From Rhodospirillaceae bacterium (lineage in GTDB: Bacteria > Pseudomonadota > Alphaproteobacteria > TMED109): a DNA stretch of 46,894 nucleotides. This document shows, one piece after another, positions 5,542 to 34,744 of this stretch. The notes below the pieces were generated by a model, which was not told where the DNA came from, ran no database searches, and was given only the letters and a program-made list of their open reading frames with translations. Both the position numbers and the translations under genes were made by a program. How positions within the stretch are numbered: position 1 is the stretch's first letter; every line of letters begins with the position of its first letter. The stretch is from the NCBI GenBank assembly GCA_902557845.1, contig CACEBX010000006.1, positions 1-46,894 on the forward strand, in the 5' to 3' direction.

Positions 5542-5631
5542 GGAGAGGTGGCCGAGTGGTTGAAGGCGCACGCCTGGAACGCGTGTATGCGAGCAATCGT
5601 ATCGAGGGTTCGAATCCCTCTCTCTCCGCCA
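5542..5631 (+). tRNA. tRNA-Ser (anticodon GGA)
   Basis: A 90-base class II tRNA including the encoded CCA. The acceptor stem GGAGAGG pairs with TCTCTCC (5621-5627, G-U at the seventh pair); the discriminator is G and CCA is at 5629-5631. The anticodon stem is CACGC/GCGTG around loop CTGGAAC, anticodon GGA at 5576-5578. A long variable arm and GGTTCGAATCC T loop follow. It reads UCC and UCU. Its 3' end is the attachment site of the genomic island and is regenerated intact as attL. Confidence 0.97.
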
Positions 5632-5633
5632 TC
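5621..5633 (+). repeat. attL core in tRNA-Ser 3' end
   Basis: TCTCTCCGCCATC covers the 3' acceptor strand, discriminator, CCA and two more bases. The same 13 bases recur at 13027-13039. Bases on either side differ (C versus T before, T versus G after), so the identity stops at the core. Integration here leaves the tRNA functional, as usual for tyrosine integrases. Confidence 0.92.
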
Positions 5634-5646
5634 TAGAGTGCTATGG

Positions 5647-5665
5647 TATGTCATACTATGTCATA
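5647..5665 (+). repeat. Tandem nonamer TATGTCATA x2 near attL
   Basis: TATGTCATA occurs at 5647-5655 and again at 5657-5665, a ten-base period that puts both copies on the same DNA face. It lies 14 bases inside the attL core and before the integrase. This would suit binding of an excisionase or integrase arm domain, but the protein bound is a guess. Confidence 0.5.
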
Positions 5666-5743
5666 ACCTTAGGGTGAGTCTAGATTCTCTTGACGAAGGT
5701 TCTCCAAGCTATTTCACTATAAATCATCATAAATCACGTCCCT

Positions 5744-5764
5744 TTGTGGACTAAGTTGTGGACT
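5744..5764 (+). repeat. Left arm-type repeat pair TTGTGGACT
   Basis: TTGTGGACT occurs at 5744-5752 and 5756-5764, spaced 12 bases start to start. The same pair with one change recurs with identical spacing just inside the right end (12943-12963). Paired repeats at both ends of a tRNA-integrated element are the expected form of integrase arm-binding sites. The left pair abuts the ribosome site of the integrase, so integrase binding could also repress its own gene. Confidence 0.65.
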
Positions 5765-5773
5765 GGAGGAAAA

Positions 5774-6955
5774 ATGTACAAGCTTAAAAATAAGGAGTTA
5801 ATCCATTTAACGAAAGGAAAGCATCATGATGGAGGAGGACTATATATACGTATTACAAGACAAGGAAAGGGACTATGGACGTATCGCTTTAGACTTAATA
5901 AAAAATCTCATGAAATGTCATTAGGAACGTTTCCTGAGGTTAAAATATCTGAAGCAAGAGAAAAACTAGCTGAGCAAAAAAGACTTCGATTAAAAAAAAT
6001 AAATCCACTTCATGAAAAGAGAAAACATGAAATTTTAAAAGAACAACAAAATAAGAAATTTTCAGAAATTGCTGATTTATATATTACAACAAAAAAAAAA
6101 GACGAATGGACTAATCCTAAAAGTGAACAACAATGGCGAAGTACTATTGAGACTTATGCCAAGCCTGTGTTAGATAGAAAACCTTTTATTGATATAAACC
6201 ATAATGACATTGTGGAGGTTTTGCACCCCATATGGAAAACGAAGACAGAGACGGCTAGAAGGCTTCAACAAAGACTCTTTAGAATCATATCATTTGCAAA
6301 GATTAAGAAATGGTACGATAAAGAAAACCCTGCTTCTTGGCAAGAACATCTAAGCCATGTGCTTGCAGACCCTTATAAAATTCAAAGAGTAAAACATCAT
6401 TCTTATTTGAAACATAGTGAAATAAAAATTTTTTATAATCAGTTGTGTCAATTAGACTTATTCTCAGCTTATGCACTTAGAATGGTCATTCTTACTGTTA
6501 CAAGAACCAGTGAAGTGCTTAAGTCAAAATTTGATGAGTTTGATTTGGACAATCGAATATGGACGATACCTTATCAAAACATGAAAGCAAGAAAAGAGCA
6601 TAAAATACCTTTATCCAATGAAGCTATTAAAATTATAAATTTTATGAAAAGAAAACATAATCATGCAATCGTATTCCCAAATACTTATTTAGCAAAACCA
6701 TTATCAAATGGTGCTATGCTTAATCTATTGAGGTCAAAATTTTCAGAATTGAAGATTACTGTTCATGGGTTTCGTTCAACTTTTAGAACTTGGGCAGAAG
6801 AAGAAGGTAAATATCAACATTATGCTATTAAGTTTTCACAAGCACATCAATTACCCAATAAAATAGAAAAAGCTTATTTGCGGTCTGATTTATTTCATCA
6901 AAGAAAAAAAATTATGAATGATTGGGAAGAATTTCTCATTATTAAAGAAGGTTAA
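5774..6955 (+). CDS. int: Tyrosine integrase, P4 family with DUF4102 N-domain
   Basis: 393 residues, full length. The N-terminal arm-binding DUF4102 domain shows GGLYIRITRQGKGLWTYRFR and SLGTFPEVKISEAREK. The core-binding domain follows, then the catalytic domain with Arg in TVTRTSEVLKSKFDEFDLD, Lys/His region KARKEHKIPLS, HGFR (His-x-x-Arg), a second His in QAHQLPNKIEKAY, and the nucleophile Tyr in EKAYLRSDL. All expected catalytic residues appear present, so the enzyme looks active. I choose ATG 5774, preceded by GGAGG at 5765-5769; the upstream TTG at 5744 would translate the arm-type repeats. It integrates and excises the element at tRNA-Ser. Confidence 0.95.
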   Translation: MYKLKNKELIHLTKGKHHDGGGLYIRITRQGKGLWTYRFRLNKKSHEMSLGTFPEVKISEAREKLAEQKRLRLKKINPLHEKRKHEILKEQQNKKFSEIADLYITTKKKDEWTNPKSEQQWRSTIETYAKPVLDRKPFIDINHNDIVEVLHPIWKTKTETARRLQQRLFRIISFAKIKKWYDKENPASWQEHLSHVLADPYKIQRVKHHSYLKHSEIKIFYNQLCQLDLFSAYALRMVILTVTRTSEVLKSKFDEFDLDNRIWTIPYQNMKARKEHKIPLSNEAIKIINFMKRKHNHAIVFPNTYLAKPLSNGAMLNLLRSKFSELKITVHGFRSTFRTWAEEEGKYQHYAIKFSQAHQLPNKIEKAYLRSDLFHQRKKIMNDWEEFLIIKEG

Positions 6956-7011
6956 ACTTGTTCAATGTAAAAGAAAATGTTAAAATTAAAGTACTTCATA
7001 ATTTATTTATG

Positions 7012-7096
7012 GGCCAAAATCACGGCCAGGTGTAGACCTAAGGAGTGATTACACGCATGCAAACATGCTAATACTTCGAAATAGATTTAAAAATCT
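7012..7096 (+). other. Cluster of four short hairpins before the AlpA gene
   Basis: Four inverted repeats lie in an 85-base run in the 190-base gap between int and the AlpA gene: GGCC (7012-7015 and 7024-7027), AGGT/ACCT (7028-7039), GCATG/CATGC around CAAA (7055-7068), and AGATTT/AAATCT (7083-7096). AAGGAGTG at 7040-7047 lies between the second and third and is followed by a start codon with only three further sense codons. The block is less AT-rich than the surroundings. It could be a structured leader RNA or a protein-binding region; function unknown. Confidence 0.4.
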
Positions 7097-7148
7097 AGTG
7101 GCGATGGTTTCAAAATTTAAAAATTAACTTTTAATGGAGACTAAGCCA

Positions 7149-7358
7149 ATGAAATCAATTTATTTAAGTAAAAAAGAAGTTGCTAGAAAGCTAAATATTA
7201 GTTCATCTACAGTAGTAAGATGGGCCAAAAATAATATTATTCCAAAACCATTTCGTTTAGGACCTAACAAAATCATTTGGGATGAAAATGAAATTAATAA
7301 AGCAATAGAAGAAAAGAAAAAACAAAGAGGATTTCTTGGACATAAGCCAGAGAAATAA
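7149..7358 (+). CDS. AlpA-like excisionase / HTH regulator
   Basis: 69 residues from the ATG at 7149, which has GGAG at 7136-7139; the ATG at 7134 has no ribosome site. The fold is a MerR-like winged helix of the AlpA type: YLSKKEVARKLNISSSTVVRWAKNNIIPKP, then RLGPNKIIWDENEINKAIEEKKKQ, with the conserved W and the C-terminal helix typical of phage AlpA. In P4 AlpA activates integrase expression; related proteins act as directionality factors. Four bases separate it from the following terminase-like gene, so they form one unit. Confidence 0.85.
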   Translation: MKSIYLSKKEVARKLNISSSTVVRWAKNNIIPKPFRLGPNKIIWDENEINKAIEEKKKQRGFLGHKPEK

Positions 7359-7361
7359 TTA

Positions 7362-7757
7362 ATGTCAACAAAACTCAATGAAAGTCAAAAAATTGCATGT
7401 CACCTAATTGCTTGTGGGGTTAAGGCTAAAGCTATTGCTAAAAAGCTAGGAATAAGAGAAGAAACTTTATCTCGTTGGAGGCAAACCGATGAATTTAAAG
7501 AGGCATTAGAATTTGCCACTAGGATTATCTTAAAAGAAATTGTTGAAACACATAAAAACCTTTTAATTTCTTCTCAGAATATAATTTTAGATGCATTGAG
7601 CAATAATGATTTGGATATATTTAAAAAAGCTAGCTTAGCACTTAGGTATTTAAGTTTAATCAAAGGAAAAGATGATATAGCTGAAAAGTCTGAGAACAAA
7701 CTTTTTAAATATTCCGAATTAGGAAATTTTGGAATCAGAAACCTAAATGGTTTTTGA
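7362..7757 (+). CDS. HTH protein resembling phage small terminase
   Basis: 131 residues. An N-terminal trihelical DNA-binding domain (about 6-55) contains the helix-turn-helix AKAIAKKLGIREETLSRWRQ followed by TDEFKEALEFATR, a pattern seen in phage small terminase subunits of the phBC6A51 type. The C-terminal half is helical with no further signature. Small terminase recognises pac or cos sites; satellites use their own version to redirect phage packaging. It could instead be a general phage HTH regulator. It follows the AlpA gene directly, and a short frame with a terminase-like overlap starts at 7747. Confidence 0.6.
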   Translation: MSTKLNESQKIACHLIACGVKAKAIAKKLGIREETLSRWRQTDEFKEALEFATRIILKEIVETHKNLLISSQNIILDALSNNDLDIFKKASLALRYLSLIKGKDDIAEKSENKLFKYSELGNFGIRNLNGF

Positions 7758-7812
7758 TAGACCTCTATTTCAACATGACCTTTATGAACAGATAATTGAT
7801 AGGACTAATTAA
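7747..7812 (+). pseudogene. 21-codon frame, possible remnant of a following gene
   Basis: ATG at 7747 overlaps the stop of the HTH gene and encodes MVFDRPLFQHDLYEQIIDRT plus one residue before TAA. The overlapping start is typical of terS-terL junctions in phages, so it may be the stump of a large terminase gene. It is cut off where the promoter repeat begins. Equally, it may be chance. No homology can be shown at this length. Confidence 0.25.
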
Positions 7813-7824
7813 TTAAGTTATAAT
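7783..7824 (+). promoter_or_regulatory. Promoter repeat copy 1 (TTGATA-17-TATAAT)
   Basis: First of four copies of a roughly 40-58-base repeat confined to the island. It contains TTGATA (7796-7801), a 17-base spacer, and a perfect TATAAT (7819-7824). The start of transcription would fall near 7831, twelve bases before the lipoprotein ATG at 7843. Spacer sequence is largely conserved with the other copies. Confidence 0.75.
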
Positions 7825-7842
7825 TTTATTTAATAAAGTATT

Positions 7843-8019
7843 ATGATGAATGTAAAAAATTTAATAAAAATTATATCAGTGTTTAGTTTATTTTTAATTA
7901 GCTGTAGTGATGAAAGTCAAAATAAAAGTAATTATAAAAAAAAGACTGGTATACCTTTAACAGGACAATCAATAGATAAAAAAGTTAACCCTAGCAAAAA
8001 AGTAAGCGACTTTTATTAA
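7843..8019 (+). CDS. Small lipoprotein
   Basis: 58 residues beginning MMNVKNLIKIISVFSLFLIS followed by the lipobox Cys (LISC, Cys21) and a short polar tail ending SKKVSDFY. Signal peptidase II processing would leave a 38-residue mature lipoprotein in the envelope. No family is recognised. It is placed just after promoter repeat copy 1. Small lipoproteins near phage-type genes are sometimes entry-exclusion factors, but nothing in the sequence shows that here. Confidence 0.7.
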   Translation: MMNVKNLIKIISVFSLFLISCSDESQNKSNYKKKTGIPLTGQSIDKKVNPSKKVSDFY

Positions 8020-8021
8020 TT

Positions 8022-8114
8022 ATGAAATACTTACTCATCTTGTTATTCCTTTTTTCTACTCAAGGTTTTTCAGGTGATGCAGATGATAAAAGTTTAACTT
8101 GCATATCAACTTAA
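8022..8114 (+). CDS. 30-residue putative exported peptide
   Basis: Starts two bases after the lipoprotein stop. MKYLLILLFLFSTQGFSG looks like a complete signal peptide, leaving DADDKSLTCIST. Either a secreted micropeptide or the stump of a longer exported protein cut by a stop. Coding status is supported only by the signal-peptide-like composition and the tight spacing. Confidence 0.4.
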   Translation: MKYLLILLFLFSTQGFSGDADDKSLTCIST

Positions 8115-8124
8115 TCAAAAAATA

Positions 8125-8152
8125 AAGACATAATGGAATTTTATCATATAAT
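8125..8152 (+). promoter_or_regulatory. Promoter of the first four-Cys paralog
   Basis: AAGACA (8125-8130), a 16-base spacer, and a perfect TATAAT (8147-8152). Only six bases separate the -10 box from the ATG at 8159, so transcription would start at or within a base of the start codon, giving a leaderless mRNA. It is not a copy of the promoter repeat. Confidence 0.55.
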
Positions 8153-8158
8153 TTAATC

Positions 8159-8605
8159 ATGAAATTTTTTCTTATTGCTACGTTGCATTTTTTATTTGTT
8201 TTTACGCTGAAGGCTGAAAAATATACATATGAGTCATCTTCTAGTGTAATATCTGACCACATTAAAATTTCAAAGGATTTGACTTCGACCACTGTTAATA
8301 TAGAAAGTAGATGGACAGACTCCTTTGGAGAATATGGCACAAATAAATGTAATGGACATATCTTAGAGGAAAGTGAAGCAATTTCATTAATTGTATTTTG
8401 TGAAAATACAGCTTCAAATGGTGATAAATTTTGGACACAACTTTTTAGAGATAAAGATATGGATGCAGGTATTGGAAGATTAAAATATCTTAACGCTACT
8501 GGAAAATACAAAAAATTCATAGGTACTGAATGTCCATATGCAGTAAACTATTTGAATAAAAAAATAAATTTTTTTAAACAAATATGCAATCTAAATAATG
8601 ATTAA
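8159..8605 (+). CDS. Exported four-Cys paralog 1
   Basis: 148 residues; signal peptide to about Ala19 (FVFTLKA/EKY). It belongs to a family of four island paralogs sharing ESRWTDSFGEYGTNKCNGH, a second Cys in IVFCENT, then DAGIGRLKYLNATGKYKKFI, a third Cys in TECPYAV, and a C-terminal Cys. The beta-rich pattern with a Gly-Thr-Gly-Lys-Tyr-like turn suggests an allene-oxide-cyclase or dirigent-like small barrel, an inference from composition only. Four conserved cysteines predict two disulfides in the periplasm. Function unknown. Confidence 0.75.
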   Translation: MKFFLIATLHFLFVFTLKAEKYTYESSSSVISDHIKISKDLTSTTVNIESRWTDSFGEYGTNKCNGHILEESEAISLIVFCENTASNGDKFWTQLFRDKDMDAGIGRLKYLNATGKYKKFIGTECPYAVNYLNKKINFFKQICNLNND

Positions 8606-8630
8606 TAAAATTAGACCTGATGTATCAGAT

Positions 8631-8674
8631 TCTATAAACAGATAATTGATAGAGCTAGTTAATTAAGTTATTAT
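8631..8674 (+). promoter_or_regulatory. Promoter repeat copy 2 (TTGATA-17-TATTAT)
   Basis: TTGATA 8646-8651, 17-base spacer, TATTAT 8669-8674. Six bases later stands the ATG of the second paralog (8681), so a leaderless transcript is predicted. It differs from copies 3 and 4 at a few positions (TATAAACA for TATGAACA, AGAGCT for AGGATT). Confidence 0.75.
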
Positions 8675-8680
8675 GTTTTT

Positions 8681-9121
8681 ATGAAAATAATATCTGCTTT
8701 AATAATTTTCTTTGCTTTTACTAAATTGAGTTTTGCAGACACATACGAGTTTGAAGCAAGTGGTAAAGTTATATCTAATGAGTCAATAGAATTGAAAAAA
8801 GGTATTGAGAAATCAATTATTGTTAATGAATCTACATGGACAGATAGCAATGGTGATTATGGTATTGTTATATGTTTAGGAACTATAGATAAATTTTTAG
8901 ATAAAAGTGTAGTGTTAAATTTAGGTTGTTCAGGAAGAAATCAAGATGATGAAAAGTTTACAGGAAATATAGTTCGAAAAAGTGATGCACTAGATGCTGG
9001 TGTTGGAGTATTTACTTATTTGGATGGTACAGGAAAATTTGAAAGATTGATTGGAAGAAAATGTAATTTAGCAATTAGATATATTGACGAATTTAATTTC
9101 TATCGACACAGGTGTAAATAA
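8681..9121 (+). CDS. Exported four-Cys paralog 2
   Basis: 146 residues; signal peptide to about Ala19 (FTKLSFA/DTY). Family motifs: ESTWTDSNGDYGIVICLGT, second Cys in LNLGCSG, DAGVGVFTYLDGTGKFERLI, third Cys in GRKCNLAI, and HRCK at the C terminus. It is the closest relative of paralog 1, with the clearest GTGKF turn. It is driven by promoter repeat copy 2 and has no Shine-Dalgarno sequence. It runs into the opposing paralog 3 with one base between stops. Function unknown. Confidence 0.8.
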   Translation: MKIISALIIFFAFTKLSFADTYEFEASGKVISNESIELKKGIEKSIIVNESTWTDSNGDYGIVICLGTIDKFLDKSVVLNLGCSGRNQDDEKFTGNIVRKSDALDAGVGVFTYLDGTGKFERLIGRKCNLAIRYIDEFNFYRHRCK

Positions 9122-9122
9122 T

Positions 9123-9629
9123 TTAATTAACTTTATTACTTAAACTTTCTGCTTGGTTTCTAGTAATTTTGCATTTTGTAATAGAGTATGAATATTCTTC
9201 ACCATGTTTTATGGCATAATTACAATTTGCACCATTTAAAACACTCCAGTAACCTTCTGCAGCAAGTTGAACAGATTTGCCAACTCCGAGTTCTGTAACT
9301 CCTACATTTCTCTCTATAGTCCACCACTTTTTTAGTTTTTTTTCATCCTTAATTTGACAGACTCCATAAATAGATAAGTCCTTTTTTTTTGAACGCTGCG
9401 CTTGACCAACACAATTTACACTACCAAAGTTACTGAAATTATCTGTCCAGGACCCTTTCATGCTCCATGTGTTATAATTACTACCATCTGATAGGTTAAA
9501 CATAGTTTGAGTGGTTTTATAATGACTATTAAGGATATAAATGTCTTTTTCTGCAAAGACTGTTGTACTTAATATCGAAGCAAAAAATACAAATGAGAGC
9601 TTAATGATAAATATATGTTTGAACATCAT
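9123..9629 (-). CDS. Exported four-Cys paralog 3
   Basis: 168 residues, the longest of the family, with signal peptide to about Ala26 (LSTTVFA/EKD). Motifs: KGSWTDNFSNFGSVNCVGQA, Cys in YGVCQIK, ELGVGKSVQLAAEGYW, NCNYAI, and TKCK; a C-terminal extension NQAESLSNKVN follows. The last barrel motif has lost the GTGK turn. On the minus strand TATAAG lies five bases before the first ATG, so it may also be leaderless. It is divergent from paralog 4 across a 102-base gap. Confidence 0.75.
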   Translation of the reverse strand: MMFKHIFIIKLSFVFFASILSTTVFAEKDIYILNSHYKTTQTMFNLSDGSNYNTWSMKGSWTDNFSNFGSVNCVGQAQRSKKKDLSIYGVCQIKDEKKLKKWWTIERNVGVTELGVGKSVQLAAEGYWSVLNGANCNYAIKHGEEYSYSITKCKITRNQAESLSNKVN

Positions 9630-9697
9630 TATAACTTATATTTAAAAGCTTAAAAAGCAATATCAATTTTTTATTAAACTAATTTTAATATTGAAAG

Positions 9698-9725
9698 TTG
9701 TGAAATCTAAGTAAGAATATATAAT
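9698..9725 (+). promoter_or_regulatory. Promoter of paralog 4
   Basis: TTGTGA (9698-9703), 16-base spacer, perfect TATAAT (9720-9725), then six bases to the ATG at 9732. The geometry is the same as for paralogs 1 and 2 and again predicts a leaderless mRNA. Confidence 0.55.
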
Positions 9726-9731
9726 TATTTT

Positions 9732-10163
9732 ATGCGATACTTTATTTTATTATTTTTTTTTTACTCACTTAAGCTTTTATCATCAGACTATATTTTTGAC
9801 TCACGTGGTGGTAGTGAGCAGAAAACACTAAAATTTCAAGATAATAGTAAATTTATTCACATTACTACTAATGGATATTGGGTAGATTCTAAAGGCAATT
9901 ATGGTAACGAAGTATGTTATGGTAGTATGGAAATAGCTGGTGACAATCAAAAGCTTGATATCTTATGTGAAATGATAGACCAGGAAGGAATAGTTTTTAA
10001 AGTTTCTAGAAAAAGAAATTCTTTAGTTGGTGGTGGCGTAGGTATAAATACCTATATTGAAGTACCAGAAAAATATAAATTTCTTAAAGAAAAAAAATGT
10101 ACATATGCTGTAACCCAATTAAATACAGATTTCTTTTATAAACAAAAATGTAAGCTTGATTAA
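9732..10163 (+). CDS. Exported four-Cys paralog 4
   Basis: 143 residues; hydrophobic N terminus to about residue 17 (YSLKLLS/SDY). Motifs: NGYWVDSKGNYGNEVCYGS, Cys in LDILCEM, GGGVGINTYIEVPEKY, KKCTYAV, and QKCK. Most divergent in the first motif (WVD for WTD) but with all four cysteines kept, suggesting they are structurally required. Function unknown. Confidence 0.75.
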   Translation: MRYFILLFFFYSLKLLSSDYIFDSRGGSEQKTLKFQDNSKFIHITTNGYWVDSKGNYGNEVCYGSMEIAGDNQKLDILCEMIDQEGIVFKVSRKRNSLVGGGVGINTYIEVPEKYKFLKEKKCTYAVTQLNTDFFYKQKCKLD

Positions 10164-10196
10164 TTAAATAGAAAAAAAAGTTACATATTTTCTATC

Positions 10197-10254
10197 CTCT
10201 TTTACTAGTCAGCTTCTATGAACAGATAATTGATAGGATTAGTTAATTAAGTTA
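10197..10254 (+). repeat. Promoter repeat copy 3 (orphan)
   Basis: 58 bases from CTCTTTT to AAGTTA that match copy 4 (12647-12704) at nearly every position and share their last 38-40 bases with copies 1 and 2. The -35-like TTGATA is kept, but the -10 position reads TAAAGA. No plus-strand gene follows within 1.7 kb, so it appears to be an orphaned module or a recombination scar. Confidence 0.75.
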
Positions 10255-10274
10255 AAGAATAGAATTAAAAGACA

Positions 10275-10301
10275 AGGTAAATATCATAATAACATTTACC
10301 T
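10275..10301. repeat. Perfect 8-bp inverted repeat
   Basis: AGGTAAAT (10275-10282) and ATTTACCT (10294-10301) are separated by 11 bases. No T-run follows on the plus strand, so it is not a normal terminator; it could be an operator or an end marker for the minus-strand gene at 10356-10859. Confidence 0.45.
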
Positions 10302-10355
10302 AGACTAAATATTTTAGTACTTTTTGACTTCTAAAATCTAATTATGCTTAAATAA

Positions 10356-10859
10356 TTATTTTGTGATTTTATAAAATATAGTATTTGTGTTAGAGGTATA
10401 ACCAGTTCCTGGGTTAAATTCTCCTTTACTCATTCCATATCCTTTTACATTAAAATAAACACCAGTTCCTCCAGTTATTTTACTACTAGAAATAATCATA
10501 CTGTTTTTATTTTGGTCTACAGGTGATTGAGCTGAGCCAGACCAAGTTCCATACATTGTGCTTCCATCATCATATACTCGCGTCCAGTAACCAGTAACAA
10601 CTCCATTTTTATATGTATAATCACTATATCCCCATAACTCTGCACTTATAGCAGATAAACCCTCACAATTTTTCTTAAAGTCTTTAAAATTACTTTCTAA
10701 TTTAAATATTCTGATTGTATGCCCTTCTATGTTAGTTTTTATTGAATATTGCTCAGTATATTTGCTATCTTCTGGTTTGTTTTTCCAAGTAAATTCACAA
10801 GGTTTTGCAAATAAAGAAATACTTAAATTGGATAGTAATAATATAATTATATATTTCAT
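10356..10859 (-). CDS. Exported protein, distant relative of the island paralogs
   Basis: 167 residues; signal peptide to about Ala18 (SISLFA/KPCEF). The centre holds TGYWTRVYDDGSTMYGTWSG and later KITGGTGVYFNVKGYG, a beta pattern like that of the four-Cys family (W-T-x-x-x-D-G and GTG turns), but with only two cysteines and no C-terminal Cys. I see it as the same fold type without claiming homology. Translation starts after GGAG five bases upstream, behind hairpin leader copy 1. Function unknown. Confidence 0.7.
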   Translation of the reverse strand: MKYIIILLLSNLSISLFAKPCEFTWKNKPEDSKYTEQYSIKTNIEGHTIRIFKLESNFKDFKKNCEGLSAISAELWGYSDYTYKNGVVTGYWTRVYDDGSTMYGTWSGSAQSPVDQNKNSMIISSSKITGGTGVYFNVKGYGMSKGEFNPGTGYTSNTNTIFYKITK

Positions 10860-10871
10860 ATTTTCTCCATT

Positions 10872-11000
10872 TTATGTGAAATAAAGAGTTGCTAAGAACT
10901 AGGGAGTAGAAATCAACAACTCTAAGTATGTTTATAATTATTACTATACATCATTATTATATTAGTAATATACCAAGTAAAGTAGCATTTCTAAAAAGAA
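10872..11000 (-). promoter_or_regulatory. Hairpin leader, copy 1
   Basis: First of three copies of a 130-140-base block lying directly upstream of minus-strand island genes. On the minus strand it has a conserved AT-rich distal part (near 10951-11000), then a hairpin AGAGTTG/CAACTCT (10885-10891 with 10917-10923) whose loop carries CTCCC, then the GGAG ribosome site of the gene at 10859. Loop CUCC is complementary to GGAG. The gene-free interval 10860-11161 holds nothing else I can identify. Confidence 0.6.
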
Positions 11001-11161
11001 AAACTAGGTAGACCCACATTAGCAAATCACCCTAGCACTTTAGTTTTAACCAGAAGTATTACCTCCCTCTTTTGCTAAAAGGTTTAGTTATAAAAATTAG
11101 AAGAGGCACCTTAAAATTATAGTAAGTGAATTAAAGTGCCCACAAAGTGTTCTCTTTTTAT

Positions 11162-11713
11162 TTAATTTTCAAAAATATATAAGTCATAAAAAGCCCTACC
11201 CATGCCTTTTCCAGTAGTATCTCCTTTAAGTTCAATAGATTTACCTAAAAATATATGTTCATTTACCCAAGCATATTTCTCACTAGTAGTTTTCATTTTA
11301 AATTCAGCAAACCAATATTTAAGTCCATTATCTGGAGCAGAGGAGGCCTTATTATTGGCAAGATTATTCAGAAAATTTTCATCTGGTGTAAGTTTAGCTG
11401 AATATTCTAAATAAATTTTTGATTCATCTGACATAGTTATAGAGCATTTTAATTCTACCCATATAAGACCATTAGGTTCACCGTAAAGATGTCCATCTTC
11501 AATGCAGACCTGAATTTCTCCTTTATCTTTTCCTAAAGTTAATGTTCCACCTTCCATAACATCAACGTGCCAAGTCTTAGAGGTCATTGCAAAGTTATTT
11601 CTGCCCATTTTTAAGTCCCATTGTCCAATTTTTTTATAATTAAGTTCTGCGTTTAGATTTGTTATAGAAAATATAGTTAAAAAAAAGATATAAATTATTT
11701 TTTTTCTTAGCAT
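11162..11713 (-). CDS. Exported DUF3237-like protein
   Basis: 183 residues with signal peptide to about Ala22 (ITNLNA/ELN). The C-terminal third, FAEFKMKTTSEKYAWVNEHI then FLGKSIELKG and AFYDLYIFE, follows the DUF3237 pattern (a Thr-containing strand, Y-x-W-x-N, glycine turn, final Y-x-x-Y). DUF3237 proteins are small barrels of unknown function. Two cysteines. GGAGGT lies eight bases before the ATG, behind hairpin leader copy 2. Family assignment is from pattern memory. Confidence 0.6.
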   Translation of the reverse strand: MLRKKIIYIFFLTIFSITNLNAELNYKKIGQWDLKMGRNNFAMTSKTWHVDVMEGGTLTLGKDKGEIQVCIEDGHLYGEPNGLIWVELKCSITMSDESKIYLEYSAKLTPDENFLNNLANNKASSAPDNGLKYWFAEFKMKTTSEKYAWVNEHIFLGKSIELKGDTTGKGMGRAFYDLYIFEN

Positions 11714-11721
11714 TTGTATTT

Positions 11722-11866
11722 ACCTCCATGTGAATTTAAAAAATAGAGTTATCAATATAACTTAGGGAGGAAAAATTAATAACTCTATAAATGGCTATAA
11801 TCTTTAAAATATAGCATTAATATATTAGTAATAGACCAAGTGAAGTAGCATTTCTTAAAAAAGAAT
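11722..11866 (-). promoter_or_regulatory. Hairpin leader, copy 2
   Basis: On the minus strand: conserved distal segment (ending near 11866), a ten-base perfect stem ATAGAGTTAT/ATAACTCTAT (11743-11752 with 11779-11788) with CCTCCC in the loop (11765-11770), a run of T after the stem, and the ribosome site GGAGGT (11722-11727). The T-run makes the hairpin look like an attenuator, and loop CCUCC can pair with GGAGG. Either could regulate the gene starting at 11713. Confidence 0.6.
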
Positions 11867-11970
11867 AATATATCTGTCTTCTGAAACTGCTTATTTAAAA
11901 TCTTATATAAATAAATATTATGTAAGTTAAACTGTAATGTTATTCTGCTGAAAGTTAATTATTATTAAGT

Positions 11971-12471
11971 ATGACTTATTTTAAAAAAAAAAATTCTCTG
12001 GAAATTGAGTATGCTAAAAGAGTAGCTATGGCTGAAGTACTAGACTTCAAACAAGGAATAGTTAAAAGAAAAGTCTCAGATTATAAGTTATATAATAATG
12101 ATTTAGACTTAATGCAAAAACATAAAAGGTTTTTGAGCTATATTTATTCTACTATTGAAAGATATACTGTTCATAGAAATATTATTCTTTATCATTATGA
12201 TAACATACCTTGCACAGCATCAGTTTTAGTAGAAACACTTGGAATTTCAAGAACTTCCCTTAATCAAATTATTCAGGACTCTGTAGGTGAAGATTGGATA
12301 TTAAAAAAAATAAATAGCAAAAATAAAAGAGAGTTTTTAATTATCCCTACTAAACTAAGGCTTGAGTTTTGGTCTATTTATTGTAAGAGAAGATACCAAA
12401 AAGCTAAGTCTGTGGGTTTAGCTAGAGCAATTCTTAATCTAGAAGAACATGAAGATAAGAAAAAACCTTAA
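11971..12471 (+). CDS. Winged-helix (MarR-like) DNA-binding protein
   Basis: 166 residues, no signal peptide, basic. The middle, CTASVLVETLGISRTSLNQI (about 76-95), is a helix-turn-helix, followed by a wing-like DWILKKINSKNKREFLIIP and LRLEFWSIYCKRRY, as in MarR-type regulators. The N-terminal 60 residues are helical with no family signature. It is the only regulator-like protein in the cargo part of the island and a candidate controller of the exported genes or of the leaders. A TATTAT stands five bases before the ATG. Confidence 0.6.
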   Translation: MTYFKKKNSLEIEYAKRVAMAEVLDFKQGIVKRKVSDYKLYNNDLDLMQKHKRFLSYIYSTIERYTVHRNIILYHYDNIPCTASVLVETLGISRTSLNQIIQDSVGEDWILKKINSKNKREFLIIPTKLRLEFWSIYCKRRYQKAKSVGLARAILNLEEHEDKKKP

Positions 12472-12578
12472 GTACTGATTAAAATATTTTAATATAGAAA
12501 TTAATTTAAATTATAATAGTTTAACTCTAATTTTTTAATTAATTAATTCATCTATAATCAAATTTTTGGTTGTAATGA

Positions 12579-12612
12579 GTTGCTATTTGAAATCTCCCTT
12601 ACGAATAGCAAC
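12579..12612 (+). terminator. Hairpin after the winged-helix gene
   Basis: GTTGCTATT (12579-12587) and AATAGCAAC (12604-12612) form a perfect nine-base stem, followed by TTTTC. It lies about 110 bases after the winged-helix gene and could be a weak intrinsic terminator. The loop holds CTCCC, as do the loops of the minus-strand leaders, so it may be a further inverted and degenerate leader copy. Confidence 0.5.
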
Positions 12613-12646
12613 TTTTCAATATTGCTAGTCTTCTCTATAACCAATT

Positions 12647-12704
12647 CTCTTTTGCCAGTCAGCTTCTATGAACAGATAATTGATAGGATTAGTTAATTAA
12701 GTTA
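12647..12704 (+). repeat. Promoter repeat copy 4 (orphan)
   Basis: Near-identical 58-base match to copy 3, including AGTCAGCTTCTATGAACAG and TTGATA (12680-12685). The -10 position reads TATTAA. No gene follows on the plus strand; it runs directly into leader copy 3. Recombination between copies 3 and 4 would excise or duplicate the 2.45-kb segment with the two minus-strand exported genes and the winged-helix gene. Confidence 0.75.
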
Positions 12705-12708
12705 TTAA

Positions 12709-12846
12709 TGTGAATTTAAAAAAATAGAGTTATTATATAACCTAGGGGAGGAAAAAATTAATAACTCTATAAATGACTATAAATTTAATATATAGCATTA
12801 ATATATTAGTAATATACCAAGTAAAGTAGCATTTCTTAAAAAAGAA
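12709..12846 (-). promoter_or_regulatory. Hairpin leader, copy 3 (orphan)
   Basis: Closely matches copy 2: stem ATAGAGTTAT/ATAACTCTAT (12724-12733 with 12761-12770), loop with CCTCCCC, seven T after the stem, and the distal segment ending near 12846. The ribosome site and gene are missing; the sequence after the hairpin on the minus strand turns into promoter repeat copy 4. Its original gene was probably lost. It shares with copy 1, but not copy 2, a further ACTAGGT and AGCAAAT-containing stretch. Confidence 0.65.
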
Positions 12847-12942
12847 TAAAATCTAATGAAACTAAAAATAATACTAGGTTAAGCTACATAAGCAAATTAC
12901 TCAGTGTTCTGAATAAGCAGAAACCTAATTTAAGAATCTAAA

Positions 12943-12963
12943 TTGTAGACTACATTGTGGACT
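12943..12963 (+). repeat. Right arm-type repeat pair
   Basis: TTGTAGACT (12943-12951) and TTGTGGACT (12955-12963), the same 12-base spacing as the left pair at 5744. It stands 63 bases inside the attR core. Probable integrase arm-binding sites. Confidence 0.65.
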
Positions 12964-13026
12964 GAAAAATTATAATGCTATATTATCTAATAAAATCAGA
13001 TGATTATAATGGAATAGCGAGGAGGT

Positions 13027-13039
13027 TCTCTCCGCCATC
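13027..13039 (+). repeat. attR core
   Basis: TCTCTCCGCCATC, identical to the tRNA-Ser 3' end at 5621-5633. It lies eight bases from the stop of the adenylate cyclase gene. Joining 5633 to 13040 predicts the empty site: tRNA-Ser followed at once by the convergent cyclase gene. Confidence 0.92.
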
Positions 13040-13046
13040 GAAAAAA

Positions 13047-14198
13047 TTATTTTAGTACATCCTTTTTAAATAAGGAAAAGAAGTTGATTGCCTCATTGTA
13101 ATCATCAGAGTTATCTAATTTTATTTTCTTGCTAGCAATCATTGATCCTCGTTTGGCCTCATAAATTTTTATTGTTAGAAAGCTTTCATTACTCTCAGAA
13201 AAAACTAATCCATTAATTACAAACGATGAGTTAGCTTCCGTAGCTATTAACATAACTTCAGGAGGATTAAGATTTTCTGAACCTTCAGGAGAGATTACTG
13301 TAGCCAACGTATCTTTTTCTGTAAGTGTTGACTTGATATTTTCCATTAGAATATTAAGTTTATCTGAAGAAAAGGTACTAGACTGATTTTTGAAGTTCAT
13401 TAAGGAAATCTTAAGTATATTATCTTCAGCTAGAGAGCCGCTTGGTTTTCTATCCTCAGAAGCTTTGAAGTCCTCTAAATTACTAACACTACTTTGATTA
13501 TAAGCTATTTTATCGGGGGAAAAATACTTATATATGAAAAAAATTGAAATAAATAGAGTAGCTGTTAATAATAAACCAATTAACATCTTTTTTTTAAGAA
13601 AACTTTTTTTGAAATTACTACTTTCTATACTTGTCAGATTTGACGAATAAACATTTATTTTTTCACTTATATTTTTTAGTTTTTTTGTTCCGAGAAAGTT
13701 AAAGTTAACATTAACTTTATTTTTAATTTCTTGATAGACTTTTTCAGAGATACATATTTCACTTGGTTTGGATATAGCTTCTAATCTAGCTGCAATATTA
13801 ACATTATCTCCATATAAATTATTATCTTGAACCATTATATCGCCTAAATTAATACCTATCCTAAATTCAATTGTAATACCGTCATTAATTTCTAATGAGG
13901 TTTTAGTTACCTTATTCTGTATTTCTATAGCTGCCTCAACTGCGTCAACGGGACTTGCAAATTCCGCCATTATCGAATCACCAGCTGTAGAGAAAATTCT
14001 TCCACCTAAATTTTGGATGATCGGGTCAGTAGTTTTTCTAGTTTCTTTTAATCTGAATAATGTCAGTTTTTCATTTTGAGCCATTAATTTACTATAACCT
14101 ACAACATCAGCCGCAAATATTGCTGCCATTTTTCTTTGTGCTCCAGCAGTATTTTTTTCTAGTGTAAATAAGTTTTTATTATCTTTAATAATAGTCAT
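13047..14198 (-). CDS. Class III adenylate/guanylate cyclase, membrane-anchored
   Basis: 383 residues. Cyclase homology domain at about 22-165: RKMAAIFAADVVGYSKLM with the first metal Asp, TAGDSIMAEF with the second, GINLGDIMV, and YGDNVNIAARLE with the transition-state Asn and Arg. Both metal ligands and the Asn/Arg pair are present, so activity is likely. A transmembrane helix follows (about 207-227), then a TolB-like domain beginning LKISLMNFKNQSS. In relatives TPR repeats often follow; here the protein ends first. The catalytic domain would be cytoplasmic. Substrate (ATP or GTP) is not decided. The stop lies in native chromosome beyond attR, so the island did not truncate it. Confidence 0.88.
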   Translation of the reverse strand: MTIIKDNKNLFTLEKNTAGAQRKMAAIFAADVVGYSKLMAQNEKLTLFRLKETRKTTDPIIQNLGGRIFSTAGDSIMAEFASPVDAVEAAIEIQNKVTKTSLEINDGITIEFRIGINLGDIMVQDNNLYGDNVNIAARLEAISKPSEICISEKVYQEIKNKVNVNFNFLGTKKLKNISEKINVYSSNLTSIESSNFKKSFLKKKMLIGLLLTATLFISIFFIYKYFSPDKIAYNQSSVSNLEDFKASEDRKPSGSLAEDNILKISLMNFKNQSSTFSSDKLNILMENIKSTLTEKDTLATVISPEGSENLNPPEVMLIATEANSSFVINGLVFSESNESFLTIKIYEAKRGSMIASKKIKLDNSDDYNEAINFFSLFKKDVLK

Positions 14199-14758: not shown

Positions 14759-15838
14759 GTGATTAAATTAGCAAAAATTCTTTTGTTTTCATTGTCATTA
14801 ATTTTAGTAGCATGCTCTGGTAATAATGATCAATCTTCAGAAGGTAAACAATCTGAACAATCAAGTAAAAAGGTGAGATGGAAAATGGCTAGTACTTTTC
14901 CTGGGTCTTTAACTCAATTAGGTACAATGGGCATAAGGTTTCAAGATCAAATTTTAAAAGTATCTGGTAAAAATATTCAAATTAAGTTTTTTGAGCCAGG
15001 AGCACTAGTTCCAGCATTAGAAGTTTTTGATGCTGTTTCATCAGGGTCAGTAGACGCAGGTTGGTCTACTCCAGGATATTGGGCAGGTAAAGTTCCGGCC
15101 TTACCTCTATTTGCCGCTGTTCCATTTGGCCCATCTGCTAGTGAATACATGGCTTGGATTTACTATGGAGGAGGAAAAGAGTTATTTGAAAAAATTTATG
15201 AGAAACATAATATAAAAGGTATATTTTGTGGGGTAATTGCTCCAGAAGCTTCAGGTTGGTTTAGAAAAGAAATTAAATCTTTAGAAGATATGAAAGGTAT
15301 GAAAATGCGCTTTTTTGGACTTGGGGCTAAAGTAATGGAAAAGATAGGTGTTTCAACGCAATTAATTGCAGGGGGTGATATATTTCCAGCTTTGGAATTG
15401 GGAACTATTGATGCTACAGAATTTTCAATGCCAGCAGTTGACCTTAACTTAGGTTTTTATCAAGTAGCTAAACATTATTACTTTCCTGGGTGGCATCAAC
15501 AATCGACTTTATTTGAGCTTATGATAAATATGGATAAATGGAATAATCTATCTGTAACGCAGCAAGCACAAATTGAAAGTGTTTGTGGAGATAATATGAG
15601 GCATGGAGTAGCTGAAGGAGAAGCTATTCAAATAGAAGCGTTAGTTTCATTAAAAGATAAAGGAGTTAAAATTCATAAATGGAACGAAGAAATTTTAGAT
15701 ACATTAAAAAAAGCTTGGCTAGAGGTTGTAAAGGAGGAAAGTGATAAAAATGAAGATTTTAAAGAAGCTTGGAACTCTCTTGAAACTTTTAGAGAAAATT
15801 ACAAAACTTGGAAGTCCTTAGGTTATTTAGATAATTAG
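14759..15838 (+). CDS. TRAP-type solute-binding lipoprotein (DctP/TakP-like)
   Basis: 359 residues from a GTG with GGGGG five bases upstream. The N terminus ends in a lipobox LILVAC (Cys19), then a Ser/Gln-rich linker. The body is a DctP-family binding protein: WKMASTFPGS, LEVFDAVSSGSVDAGWSTPG, a conserved carboxylate-binding Arg in MKMRFFGLGAKVMEKIG, and ATEFSMPAVD. The closest family I recall is the TakP-like alpha-keto-acid branch; the substrate is inferred only. TRAP receptors usually pair with DctQ and DctM, but neither is here. The next gene, 11 bases on, is a DASS symporter. Confidence 0.9.
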   Translation: MIKLAKILLFSLSLILVACSGNNDQSSEGKQSEQSSKKVRWKMASTFPGSLTQLGTMGIRFQDQILKVSGKNIQIKFFEPGALVPALEVFDAVSSGSVDAGWSTPGYWAGKVPALPLFAAVPFGPSASEYMAWIYYGGGKELFEKIYEKHNIKGIFCGVIAPEASGWFRKEIKSLEDMKGMKMRFFGLGAKVMEKIGVSTQLIAGGDIFPALELGTIDATEFSMPAVDLNLGFYQVAKHYYFPGWHQQSTLFELMINMDKWNNLSVTQQAQIESVCGDNMRHGVAEGEAIQIEALVSLKDKGVKIHKWNEEILDTLKKAWLEVVKEESDKNEDFKEAWNSLETFRENYKTWKSLGYLDN

Positions 15839-15849
15839 ATTAATTAAAA

Positions 15850-17319
15850 TTGGTTAATAAAAAGAATATTTCTTTATTAGGGTTAATATTTGGAATTATA
15901 GTCTTTTTATTTATTTACTTCTCTCCTCCACCACAGGGATTAGATAGAATAGCTTGGTTTACCGCTGGCGTAGCTATCTTAATGACAATATGGTGGGTAA
16001 CAGAAGCGATTCCTATTTATGCGACTGGTTTAGTCCCTCTTTTGCTTTTCCCCTTATTAGGCTTATTTGAATTGAAAACAGTATCGGCATCTTATGCACA
16101 CCCCCTTGTACTTTTATTTTTAGGAGGTTTTATTATAGCTTCTGCTATGGAAGAGTGTGGACTACATAAAAGAATAGCTTTAAAAATTCTTAGTTTTTCT
16201 GGAACTAGTCCAAGTAAAATTATAGCTGGATTCATGATTGCCACTTCAGTTTTAAGTATGTGGGTTAGTAATACGGCATCAACTATAATGATGCTACCAA
16301 TTGCTACTTCAGTTATAGTACTTTTTACTATCCAGCAGAATGTAGAGGATAAGAATTTTGCTGTGCCCCTATTGCTGTCAATAGCTTACGCTGCATCCAT
16401 AGGAGGAACTGCAACTTTAATTGGCACACCAACAAATATAATGTTGGCAAGTATACTTAGTGATAATTATGGTTATAAAATAAGTTTTATTGATTGGTTT
16501 ATGATAGGCCTACCTGTAGTAGCTATTTTAATGCCAATTGTCTGGTTTTTTCTAACTAAAGTTGTATTTAAGGTATCTTCTCAAAAATCAGATGCTTTGG
16601 ATAATACACTTGTGAAAATGAAAAAAGAAATTGGAAAACCAAGTATAACTGAAAAAGTTGTAGCGACTGTATTTTTTTTGACAGCTTCGCTTTGGATTTT
16701 TAGAAAAACACTAAATGAAAAATTTAGCTTAAATCTAAATGATACATCAATTGGTATACTCGGAGCATTGCTTTTATTTATAATTCCCTACGGATCTAAT
16801 AAAAGAGCTTGTAATTGGGAAACTGCAAATAAGATTCCATGGGGTGTGTTATTTCTGGTTGGTGGTGGAATAGCACTTTCACGAGGAATTAAAAACTCAG
16901 GTTTAGCTGAGTGGATAGGATCTTTTTCTAATTATTTGTATGGATTAGATATTTACTTGTTGATACTTATTGCTGTAGGCTTAATTATATTTTTAACAGA
17001 ACTTAATTCCAATACTGCAACAGTAGCAACATTTACTCCTATATTAATTATATTTGCTGTAGGACTTGAAGTTAACCCACTTATTTTTGTAATACCTACT
17101 ACTATAGCGGCAAGTTGCGCATTTATGCTTCCTATTGCAACTCCTCCAAATGCAGTTGTTTTTGGTAGCGGAAAGTTAAAAATTAATAATATGATAAGAG
17201 CAGGATTCCCACTTAATATTCTTTCTATTTTTATAGTTACTGCAGTATGCCAAATAATCTTAAATCAGGTTTTTGACTTTAATTTGATGATCCTACCAGA
17301 ATGGGTGCTTGAAAATTAA
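15850..17319 (+). CDS. DASS/SLC13-type sodium:dicarboxylate symporter
   Basis: 489 residues, about a dozen hydrophobic segments. DASS signatures are complete: first SNT motif in MWVSNTASTIMMLPIATSV, the hairpin GGTATLIGTPTNIMLA, second SNT motif in LTELNSNTATVATFTPI, and PIATPPNAVVFGSGK. Such proteins take up C4 dicarboxylates, citrate or sulfate with sodium by an elevator mechanism. The start is TTG at 15850, the only NTG near the stop at 15841, with no clear ribosome site, so it is probably coupled to the binding-protein gene. It ends in a four-base convergent overlap with the DUF6580-like gene. Confidence 0.92.
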   Translation: MVNKKNISLLGLIFGIIVFLFIYFSPPPQGLDRIAWFTAGVAILMTIWWVTEAIPIYATGLVPLLLFPLLGLFELKTVSASYAHPLVLLFLGGFIIASAMEECGLHKRIALKILSFSGTSPSKIIAGFMIATSVLSMWVSNTASTIMMLPIATSVIVLFTIQQNVEDKNFAVPLLLSIAYAASIGGTATLIGTPTNIMLASILSDNYGYKISFIDWFMIGLPVVAILMPIVWFFLTKVVFKVSSQKSDALDNTLVKMKKEIGKPSITEKVVATVFFLTASLWIFRKTLNEKFSLNLNDTSIGILGALLLFIIPYGSNKRACNWETANKIPWGVLFLVGGGIALSRGIKNSGLAEWIGSFSNYLYGLDIYLLILIAVGLIIFLTELNSNTATVATFTPILIIFAVGLEVNPLIFVIPTTIAASCAFMLPIATPPNAVVFGSGKLKINNMIRAGFPLNILSIFIVTAVCQIILNQVFDFNLMILPEWVLEN

Positions 17320-17866: not shown

Positions 17867-19696
17867 CTAATTTTCAAACTTTAATCCTAAATACATAGAG
17901 AGTCCAGGACTTCTATATCCTAAATTTTCTGATGTTCCACCACCTCTATTTACTATGTTATCTCTGTCTAAAATATTTTCAAATTTTACAAAAGCTTTTG
18001 AGTTTTTTTGAAATGAATAGCTCGCATTCAAATTCAATGATCTATAAACAGGTAATTCATTATATTTAGTATCTTTAGATTTATTTTGAAATAAGTAATA
18101 AGTATTAATATTTATATTTTCTCTTGGCTCATAGTTCAAAGAAAAAACAATTTTATCTTTAGGAACTAAAGTTATACTATCACCATCATTTTCTTTTCCA
18201 TGAGTTTTTGTGTAATCTATGCTTGTAGTTAAAAAGTCATAAATTGAAGTTTTAAAACTTATTTCAGATCCATGTGTTTTAAGATTTGCTGTTGATTGTC
18301 TGTATTTAGATGCAGCATACTTTATTATATCTTCTACTTTAGTTTCAAAAACACCAAAATATAATTTACCAGAATTTTTCTTAAAGCTTATTTCACTTCC
18401 TAAATCATAGGTAATAGATTTCTCAGGTGTCAAGTTAGTATTTCCGTATGAACTATATAGCTCGTATGGTGTAGGCGTTCTATATCCTGTTCCAAGACTT
18501 CCTCTTAAAATAACATTTTTAAATATATTATTGTTAAACTGTATTCTTCCTGTATCAAAAGTATCATACTGACTGTCGTATTCTCTTCTAATAGAAGCAT
18601 CAACATTTGTAGAATTTAATAGTTTAAATCTAAATTCGGAAAAAATAGAATGTATTTCTTTATCTGCTAAATCTCCATTCATATCAGCACTTTTCTTAAG
18701 ATATTCCAAACCTGATAGTGTATTTATGCCAAAAAAATTACCTGATAAAATATATTCCAATTTATTTTTTCTACCATCATACTCATAGACCCCACCAATT
18801 GTATTTATGCGTGTTGTGTAAGTAGGCTGATAAGTAATTTTATGACTTATTTCATTATGACTAAAAATTAAATCAAATAGTAAAGCATACACTTTATCAT
18901 CTCTGTAGTGCACTAAACTATCACCCGGATAAGAATAAGCATCATCGTACTCGTTGTGTTGCTTATAAAACCTACCATTAAAGTTAGCTTCTACATCATC
19001 TGTAATTATAAAATTTGATAAAAAATTTGACCCATATAAGTAATAGCCATCTTTTTCTGTAGGGGCTAATTCCGTTTCAATAAAACTACTATAGCCAGTA
19101 GACCTCTCACCCTCTAAATTAACAACTAGCTGTAATTTTTCATTTGAATAATTGAAAGAGTTAGAGTTTTTTATAGATCCATATGATCCTGCTTCTAAAT
19201 AGTTAATTTCTTTAAATCCAAATTCATCAGGAAATGAGGAGTTTATACTTATTACACCTCCTATTGCGTTTCCTCCATACAGAGTTCCTTGTGAGCCATT
19301 TAAAATTTCAATATTATCAATAGTAATTAGATTCAAATTGTCAATATATGTTGGCTCTTCTTGAGTTGAAGTGATATCTGATAAGTCCATACCATCTACC
19401 AAAACTTTTATATATTTTCTTGATAAGCCTCTATTAAAATAACTTGGGTCAGTTCCTTTATTTCCCTTAGTAGAGACAGTAAATCCTCCAAATTCTTGTA
19501 ATATACCACTAGTAGTTGTGGCAGCAGAACTTTCAATTTGTTTTTTATTAATCTTTAGTACAGATGATCCTACCTTATTTAATTCAACTAGAGACCTATT
19601 AGGAGTTACTACTATATTTCCCAAGCTTTCTTGAGATATAGCGTTTTTAGTAATTGAAAAAATAATTATACAATATATTACTTTTAAAAATTTCAT
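17867..19696 (-). CDS. btuB: BtuB-like TonB-dependent cobalamin receptor
   Basis: 609 residues. Signal peptide to about residue 21 (NAISQ), TonB box GNIVVTPNR (about 26-34), plug domain with KVLVDGMDL and GSQGTLYGGNAIGGVISI, then a beta barrel ending in YLGLKFEN. Length matches BtuB (about 600). The cobalamin riboswitch immediately upstream identifies the ligand more firmly than the protein sequence does. GAAAGG and AAAGG precede the ATG. It would import vitamin B12 across the outer membrane with TonB energy; a tonB gene lies nearby on the same strand. Confidence 0.9.
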   Translation of the reverse strand: MKFLKVIYCIIIFSITKNAISQESLGNIVVTPNRSLVELNKVGSSVLKINKKQIESSAATTTSGILQEFGGFTVSTKGNKGTDPSYFNRGLSRKYIKVLVDGMDLSDITSTQEEPTYIDNLNLITIDNIEILNGSQGTLYGGNAIGGVISINSSFPDEFGFKEINYLEAGSYGSIKNSNSFNYSNEKLQLVVNLEGERSTGYSSFIETELAPTEKDGYYLYGSNFLSNFIITDDVEANFNGRFYKQHNEYDDAYSYPGDSLVHYRDDKVYALLFDLIFSHNEISHKITYQPTYTTRINTIGGVYEYDGRKNKLEYILSGNFFGINTLSGLEYLKKSADMNGDLADKEIHSIFSEFRFKLLNSTNVDASIRREYDSQYDTFDTGRIQFNNNIFKNVILRGSLGTGYRTPTPYELYSSYGNTNLTPEKSITYDLGSEISFKKNSGKLYFGVFETKVEDIIKYAASKYRQSTANLKTHGSEISFKTSIYDFLTTSIDYTKTHGKENDGDSITLVPKDKIVFSLNYEPRENININTYYLFQNKSKDTKYNELPVYRSLNLNASYSFQKNSKAFVKFENILDRDNIVNRGGGTSENLGYRSPGLSMYLGLKFEN

Positions 19697-19782
19697 GGAC
19701 CTTTCCTTTCAAATAGTTTTAAAATTGGCCATGAACGAAGTAATCGCGCTTTAAACGTAACCTCCGACGTAAGCTAGACCAT

Positions 19783-19935
19783 ATTTGGCAGGTTTCCTGA
19801 CTTACGACTAGTATTTCTTCCTTCCCAGAAAATTATCCAGTGGACTTTAGAAAAACTTTTCGTCGTTTACAGTTGCGGAGACAGTTATGGCTTTAAACCA
19901 TATTCCCTTTTACTTCTTTTTACAGAACACCAAAC
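19783..19935 (-). promoter_or_regulatory. Cobalamin riboswitch
   Basis: On the minus strand the aptamer reads, in order: AAGGGAATATGGT, CATAACTGTCTCCGCAACTGTAA, CCACTGG (the B12 box region), TGGGAAGG, and AGTCAGGAAACCTGCC. These are the conserved blocks of the AdoCbl class in the correct order. It ends about 85 bases before the btuB ATG. CGTAAG in the 3' part (near 19797-19804) can pair with CTTACG after the aptamer (near 19767-19774), a plausible expression platform. It should reduce btuB and DUF6580 expression when cobalamin is plentiful. Confidence 0.95.
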
Positions 19936-19980
19936 ATATTTATATTATATAAAAATAAAAATAAAATGATATGAATATTA

Positions 19981-34741: not shown

Positions 34742-34744
34742 AAA

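Follow-up and report, generated by a model that had tools for sequence, protein, structure and literature searches.

What might a short element do that occurs three times on one strand of a bacterial island, each time with a hairpin presenting an anti-Shine-Dalgarno (aSD) loop? Within the window analysed here (46,894 nucleotides of contig CACEBX010000006.1 from a Rhodospirillaceae bacterium), minus-strand repeats at 10900-11003, 11728-11871 and 12708-12852 share 80-91% pairwise identity, and each comprises a conserved distal segment followed by a hairpin with a C-rich loop on a stem of 11-14 bp. This bears out much of what an initial annotation had read from the DNA, namely a distal segment and hairpin common to three copies, loops with CTCCC or CCTCCC (CTCCC, CCTCCC and CCTCCCC for copies 1, 2 and 3) and T-runs after the stem, which are clean in copies 2 and 3 and interrupted in copy 1. 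The copies fold better than dinucleotide shuffles (z -2.2 to -3.6), their distal segments are at least as conserved as their hairpins, and the full element has these three copies and none elsewhere in its own 1.31 Mb assembly (72% complete). The three copies and their hairpins are real and beyond chance; since they arose by duplication of a single segment, finding three of them does not in itself amount to independent evidence of selection or function. The features concerned are as follows.

5744-6955, plus strand: tyrosine integrase of the island
10356-10859, minus strand: 167-aa small protein led by copy 1, signal-peptide-like N terminus, no Pfam family
10885-10923, minus strand: copy 1 hairpin, 11-bp stem AGAGTTGTTGA/TTAGCAACTCT, loop TTTCTACTCCCTAGTTC
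10926-11003, minus strand: copy 1 distal promoter-like segment
11162-11713, minus strand: 183-aa small protein led by copy 2, signal-peptide-like N terminus, DUF3237
11743-11788, minus strand: copy 2 hairpin, 14-bp stem, loop TTTTCCTCCCTAAGTTAT, T-run after
11789-11871, minus strand: copy 2 distal promoter-like segment
11971-12471, plus strand: MarR-like HTH gene (weak Pfam match), divergent from copy 2, candidate regulator
12577-12614, plus strand: extra hairpin with TCTCCCTT loop directly after the HTH gene, also in genome G013, weak with hairpin model R3 (16 bits)
12724-12770, minus strand: copy 3 hairpin, 12-bp stem, CCTCCCC in loop, T-run after
12771-12852, minus strand: copy 3 distal promoter-like segment

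The copies sit within an integrative island of 7.4 kb (5621-13039) whose ends are exact 13-bp att repeats, one at the 3' end of a tRNA-Ser gene (5621-5633) and the other at 13027-13039, with none expected in shuffles; a terminase-small-subunit-like protein is also encoded there. The one other genome found to have the full element is G013 (record CACHHO010000021.1, Rhodospirillaceae isolate AG-430-C17), where it adjoins an integrase next to tRNA-Tyr. In G013 the copy-1 cargo gene is joined instead to a leader like that of copy 2 and to an HTH gene of 98% identity, so leaders and cargo have been rearranged as units. Both homologous blocks in G013 stop at the hairpin edge, beside 16 nt common to an integrase 3' end.

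Several further features of this DNA were observed. At the G013 hairpin edge (locus L009, 14860-14900) the string TCTGCTAACTTAAAAA is identical to part of the integrase 3' end, as would be expected at a recombination junction. Copy 3 abuts a second repeat (12644-12720), which recurs in the window at 7783-7826, 8625-8689 and 10194-10270 and in L009 at 14046-14186 and 15812-15952. This second repeat is identical to a tyrosine integrase gene's 3' end (coding ...AVSFYEQIIDRIS-stop) and contains a TTGATA-17-TATAAT promoter match. It turns up in many cargo arrays among the fetched loci of relatives, with several copies just upstream of a cargo gene, and is possibly a cassette or attachment-site system. 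Paralogous small exported-looking proteins (WTDSxGxYG..C) are encoded at 8159-8605, 8681-9121, 9123-9629 and 9732-10163, and are matched 17 times in the own assembly and 50 times in genome G022, an extreme expansion for proteins with no Pfam family. Farther along the window a cobalamin riboswitch (19770-19949) lies upstream of a TonB-receptor-like gene (17867-19696).

The element had been described as a hairpin directly upstream of a gene, with loop and ribosome site complementary in each case. For copies 1 and 2 this holds, the start codon lying 25 nt past the hairpin with GGAG and 29 nt past it with GGAGG, respectively, whereas copy 3 has neither a gene nor an SD downstream, so the general statement fails. 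The loop matches its own SD over 4 bp in copy 1 and 5 bp in copy 2, and when ranked among the upstream regions of the 37 window genes these matches come 12th and 6th; with 11 and 5 other window genes pairing better, loop/own-site pairing is not tuned. The best non-self window site for the copy 1 loop is that of a gltD-like gene (at 34745, -22 kcal/mol), whose ribosome site (34726-34747) is nearly fully complementary to the loop; we treat it as no more than a lead, since a comparison of this sort favours SD sites by construction. SD-sequestering leaders and RNA thermometers hold the SD within a hairpin of the 5' leader. Copies 1 and 2 resemble them in having a 5'-leader hairpin close to the SD, but folding places the SD outside the main stem, engaged just in short weak pairs and over 4-5 bp with the loop, and reveals no thermometer signature. 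Compensatory stem change between copy 1 and the other two amounts to one main-stem pair (A-U to G-C); the two outer pairs are simply lost in copy 1.

With the full-element model R1, nothing was found beyond the own genome and G013 among 28 genomes of the order and 385 of the class, whereas the hairpin alone is present at more places. One weak R1 match (L028) was retained as a hairpin, and four (L026, L027, L029 and L031) were judged to be chance. In all, six more family sites and one tentative own-genome site have the hairpin by itself, its loop being CTCCC/CTCCTCCC and its stem changes compensating. A scan of the fetched loci for long stems enclosing CTCC, which took its cue from one weak model match, placed the same loop on different stems at G010:C6:39914, where the layout is as in the island (divergent HTH, hairpin with T-run, cargo) and the cargo lacks GGAG, and at G022:C8 and G025:C21, where no sense gene follows directly. 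A model built from seven hairpins (R2) then matched two sites outside the model with a CUCCUCCC loop, G022:C20:3998 (E 6.6e-6) and G025:C18:4245 (E 5.6e-5), and weakly a third, G010:C2:62501. The G025:C18 (L107, 4245-4303) and G010:C2 (L109, 62501-62556) hairpins have a common stem, loop core and TTGACT promoter with the palindrome GAGAATGAT...ATTCTC, which agrees at 15 of 19 positions with the Fur box, a level at which two chance matches per whole window occur; they are candidates for an iron-controlled small RNA. The G025:C18 hairpin ends in T10, 84 nt ahead of a TenA-like gene without GGAG. Model R3 pointed to the tentative own-genome hairpin (C8:21703-21759, E 0.0097), which is identical to that of G010:C6 at 44 of 56 positions without gaps and is divergent from a urea-transporter-like gene. 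Taken over the eleven hairpins, a sense ORF lies within 90 nt of five and none is found within 400 nt of six, these being copy 3 and five relatives.

Under strict filters, R2 and R3 searches of the 385 class genomes gave no convincing member outside the family, the R2 matches in G035, G266 and G346 having the stem and lacking the CTCC loop. BLAST matches in G004, G005, G008 and G057 resemble coding sequence, and the element is absent from them by eye. The element had no match in the phages and viral contigs searched, and the contig search returned only G013's own record. An integron attC site was considered, and no attC-like motif was seen by eye.

Is the hairpin maintained as a structure? Over ten hairpins, six of the 12 stem pairs are altered on both sides with pairing kept, a covariation score reached by none of 500 shuffles, although the count leans towards structure because three model members were selected for stems around CTCC and four loop bases were taken out of one row. 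Covariation is substantial once the hairpins of related genomes are added. Among 100 long-stem hairpins from 388 kb, moreover, no loop 5-mer is more enriched than CTCCC (7 versus 0.83 expected), an enrichment that comes partly from homologous copies.

The best reading of these observations, which we put forward tentatively and at slightly below an even chance, is a single-hairpin aSD RNA that acts in trans and doubles as the 5' leader of two island cargo genes. The hairpin and aSD loop are common to all members and a downstream SD or gene is not, which fits trans-acting aSD RNAs, and because relatives often carry the hairpin with no gene behind it, a small regulatory RNA is more likely than a switch of the adjacent gene only. 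The module would comprise a promoter segment and then one hairpin presenting the aSD loop (CUCCC to CUCCUCCC). Transcription would start within the module and be released at the U-run, and the loop of the resulting short RNA would base-pair to the SDs of other mRNAs, blocking their translation, in the style of alpha-r14/NfeR1. On the island the module was duplicated along with cargo genes, copy 3 having no gene left, and the divergent MarR-like gene is its likely regulator. Read-through past the hairpins of copies 1 and 2 would also yield mRNA for an exported-looking protein. These two copies leave no space for a second promoter, and their cargo mRNA must therefore traverse the hairpin, so an additional leader or attenuator role is likely for them, and attenuation is possible in copies 2 and 3. 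Counted against the small RNA are the five hairpins with a sense gene within 90 nt, the U-run-less hairpins of G022 and G025:C21, and the lack of any member outside the family in 385 class genomes.

Of what the initial annotation proposed, a riboregulator with an aSD loop is the favoured reading; the narrower form, an own-SD leader or a thermosensor serving exported cargo, lacks support as the general role, because six of the eleven are not followed by any sense gene over 400 nt and the genes behind two others (G010:C6 and G025:C18) carry no GGAG. A cis riboregulator, in which an H-type pseudoknot between the loop and the SD of its own gene keeps exported cargo from being translated until some signal melts the pairing, we consider unlikely. 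Its spacing would allow the pseudoknot, genes do lie close to five hairpins, and both led genes have a strong SD (GGAG, GGAGG), which most of the 37 window genes lack and which is compatible with a cis role; the brevity of the pairing, the better pairing of other window SDs, the genes without GGAG and the geneless state of copy 3 and five relatives weigh against it.

It is still less probable that the hairpin and U-run form a transcription attenuator or terminator that halts most transcripts ahead of the cargo gene, the loop sequence being incidental. Copies 2 and 3, G013, G010:C6 and G025:C18 do have a T-run immediately behind the stem, but copy 1 and the hairpins of G022 and G025:C21 have no clean U-run, the stems of copies 2 and 3 are A+T-rich, unlike the G+C-rich stem of an intrinsic terminator, and bear long loops, a terminator scan found none, and conservation of the loop across differing stems would be left unexplained. 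We give similarly little weight to a role at the level of DNA, whether as a duplicated promoter/operator for the MarR-like regulator or as a recombination end of island cassettes, with no RNA role for the hairpin. The near-identity of the copies throughout, distal segment included, the adjoining divergent HTH gene and the G013 blocks ending at the hairpin edge beside the 16 nt shared with an integrase would all suit it, yet in relatives the hairpin and loop are present where the distal segment is missing and the HTH gene is not close by, with compensating stem changes.

The trans-acting aSD RNA that we favour has known counterparts. The alpha-r14/NfeR1 and SmelA075/SmelA099 (cuckoo) RNAs of the Rhizobiales present aSD loops (CCUCCUCCC) on variable stems, have several copies per genome in alphaproteobacteria and contain two to four hairpins per RNA, and for NfeR1 silencing at the ribosome site has been demonstrated (PMC10746234, PMC3927594). 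The island hairpins likewise hold an aSD motif in the loop on stems that vary with pairing kept; unlike those RNAs, they have one aSD hairpin per unit, lack the full CCUCCUCCC motif (the loop is often just CUCCC), are island-borne with two copies fused to gene leaders, and match no sRNA family in Rfam above cut-off. Since they have neither several hairpins per RNA nor an Rfam match, we do not file them under alpha-r14/cuckoo. In Rhodobacter, RS0680a has aSD stem-loops and CcsR is an RNA from the ccaF1 3' UTR, RNAs of this kind having two stem-loops processed from a 3' UTR (PMC3927594, PMC8625941). The aSD stem-loops of RS0680a and derivation of an RNA from a UTR are shared traits, but here the hairpin is a 5' leader or stands alone rather than being one of a 3' UTR-processed pair. 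A caiA RNA (RF02934) likeness, with a hairpin, then CACA..GGAGG and a start codon, was rejected: its 24.4 bits fall far under the gathering cut-off of 55.5, and the SD and start codon drive the match.

A wider claim, which we regard as possible but on the doubtful side, is that these hairpins belong to a lineage-specific family of single-hairpin aSD RNAs in this A+T-rich family of alphaproteobacteria, some of them under iron control and some borne on integrative islands, where a copied RNA gene doubles as promoter-leader for exported cargo. If this is true, an island could adjust the translation of its host at the same time as it expresses its genes. Anti-SD small RNAs are already known from rhizobia and Rhodobacter, and the compact version here would be new. 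In a streamlined lineage where most examined genes have no SD, a compact aSD RNA would imply a small regulon consisting of the SD-led minority, and would point to mobile islands as carriers of translation regulators.
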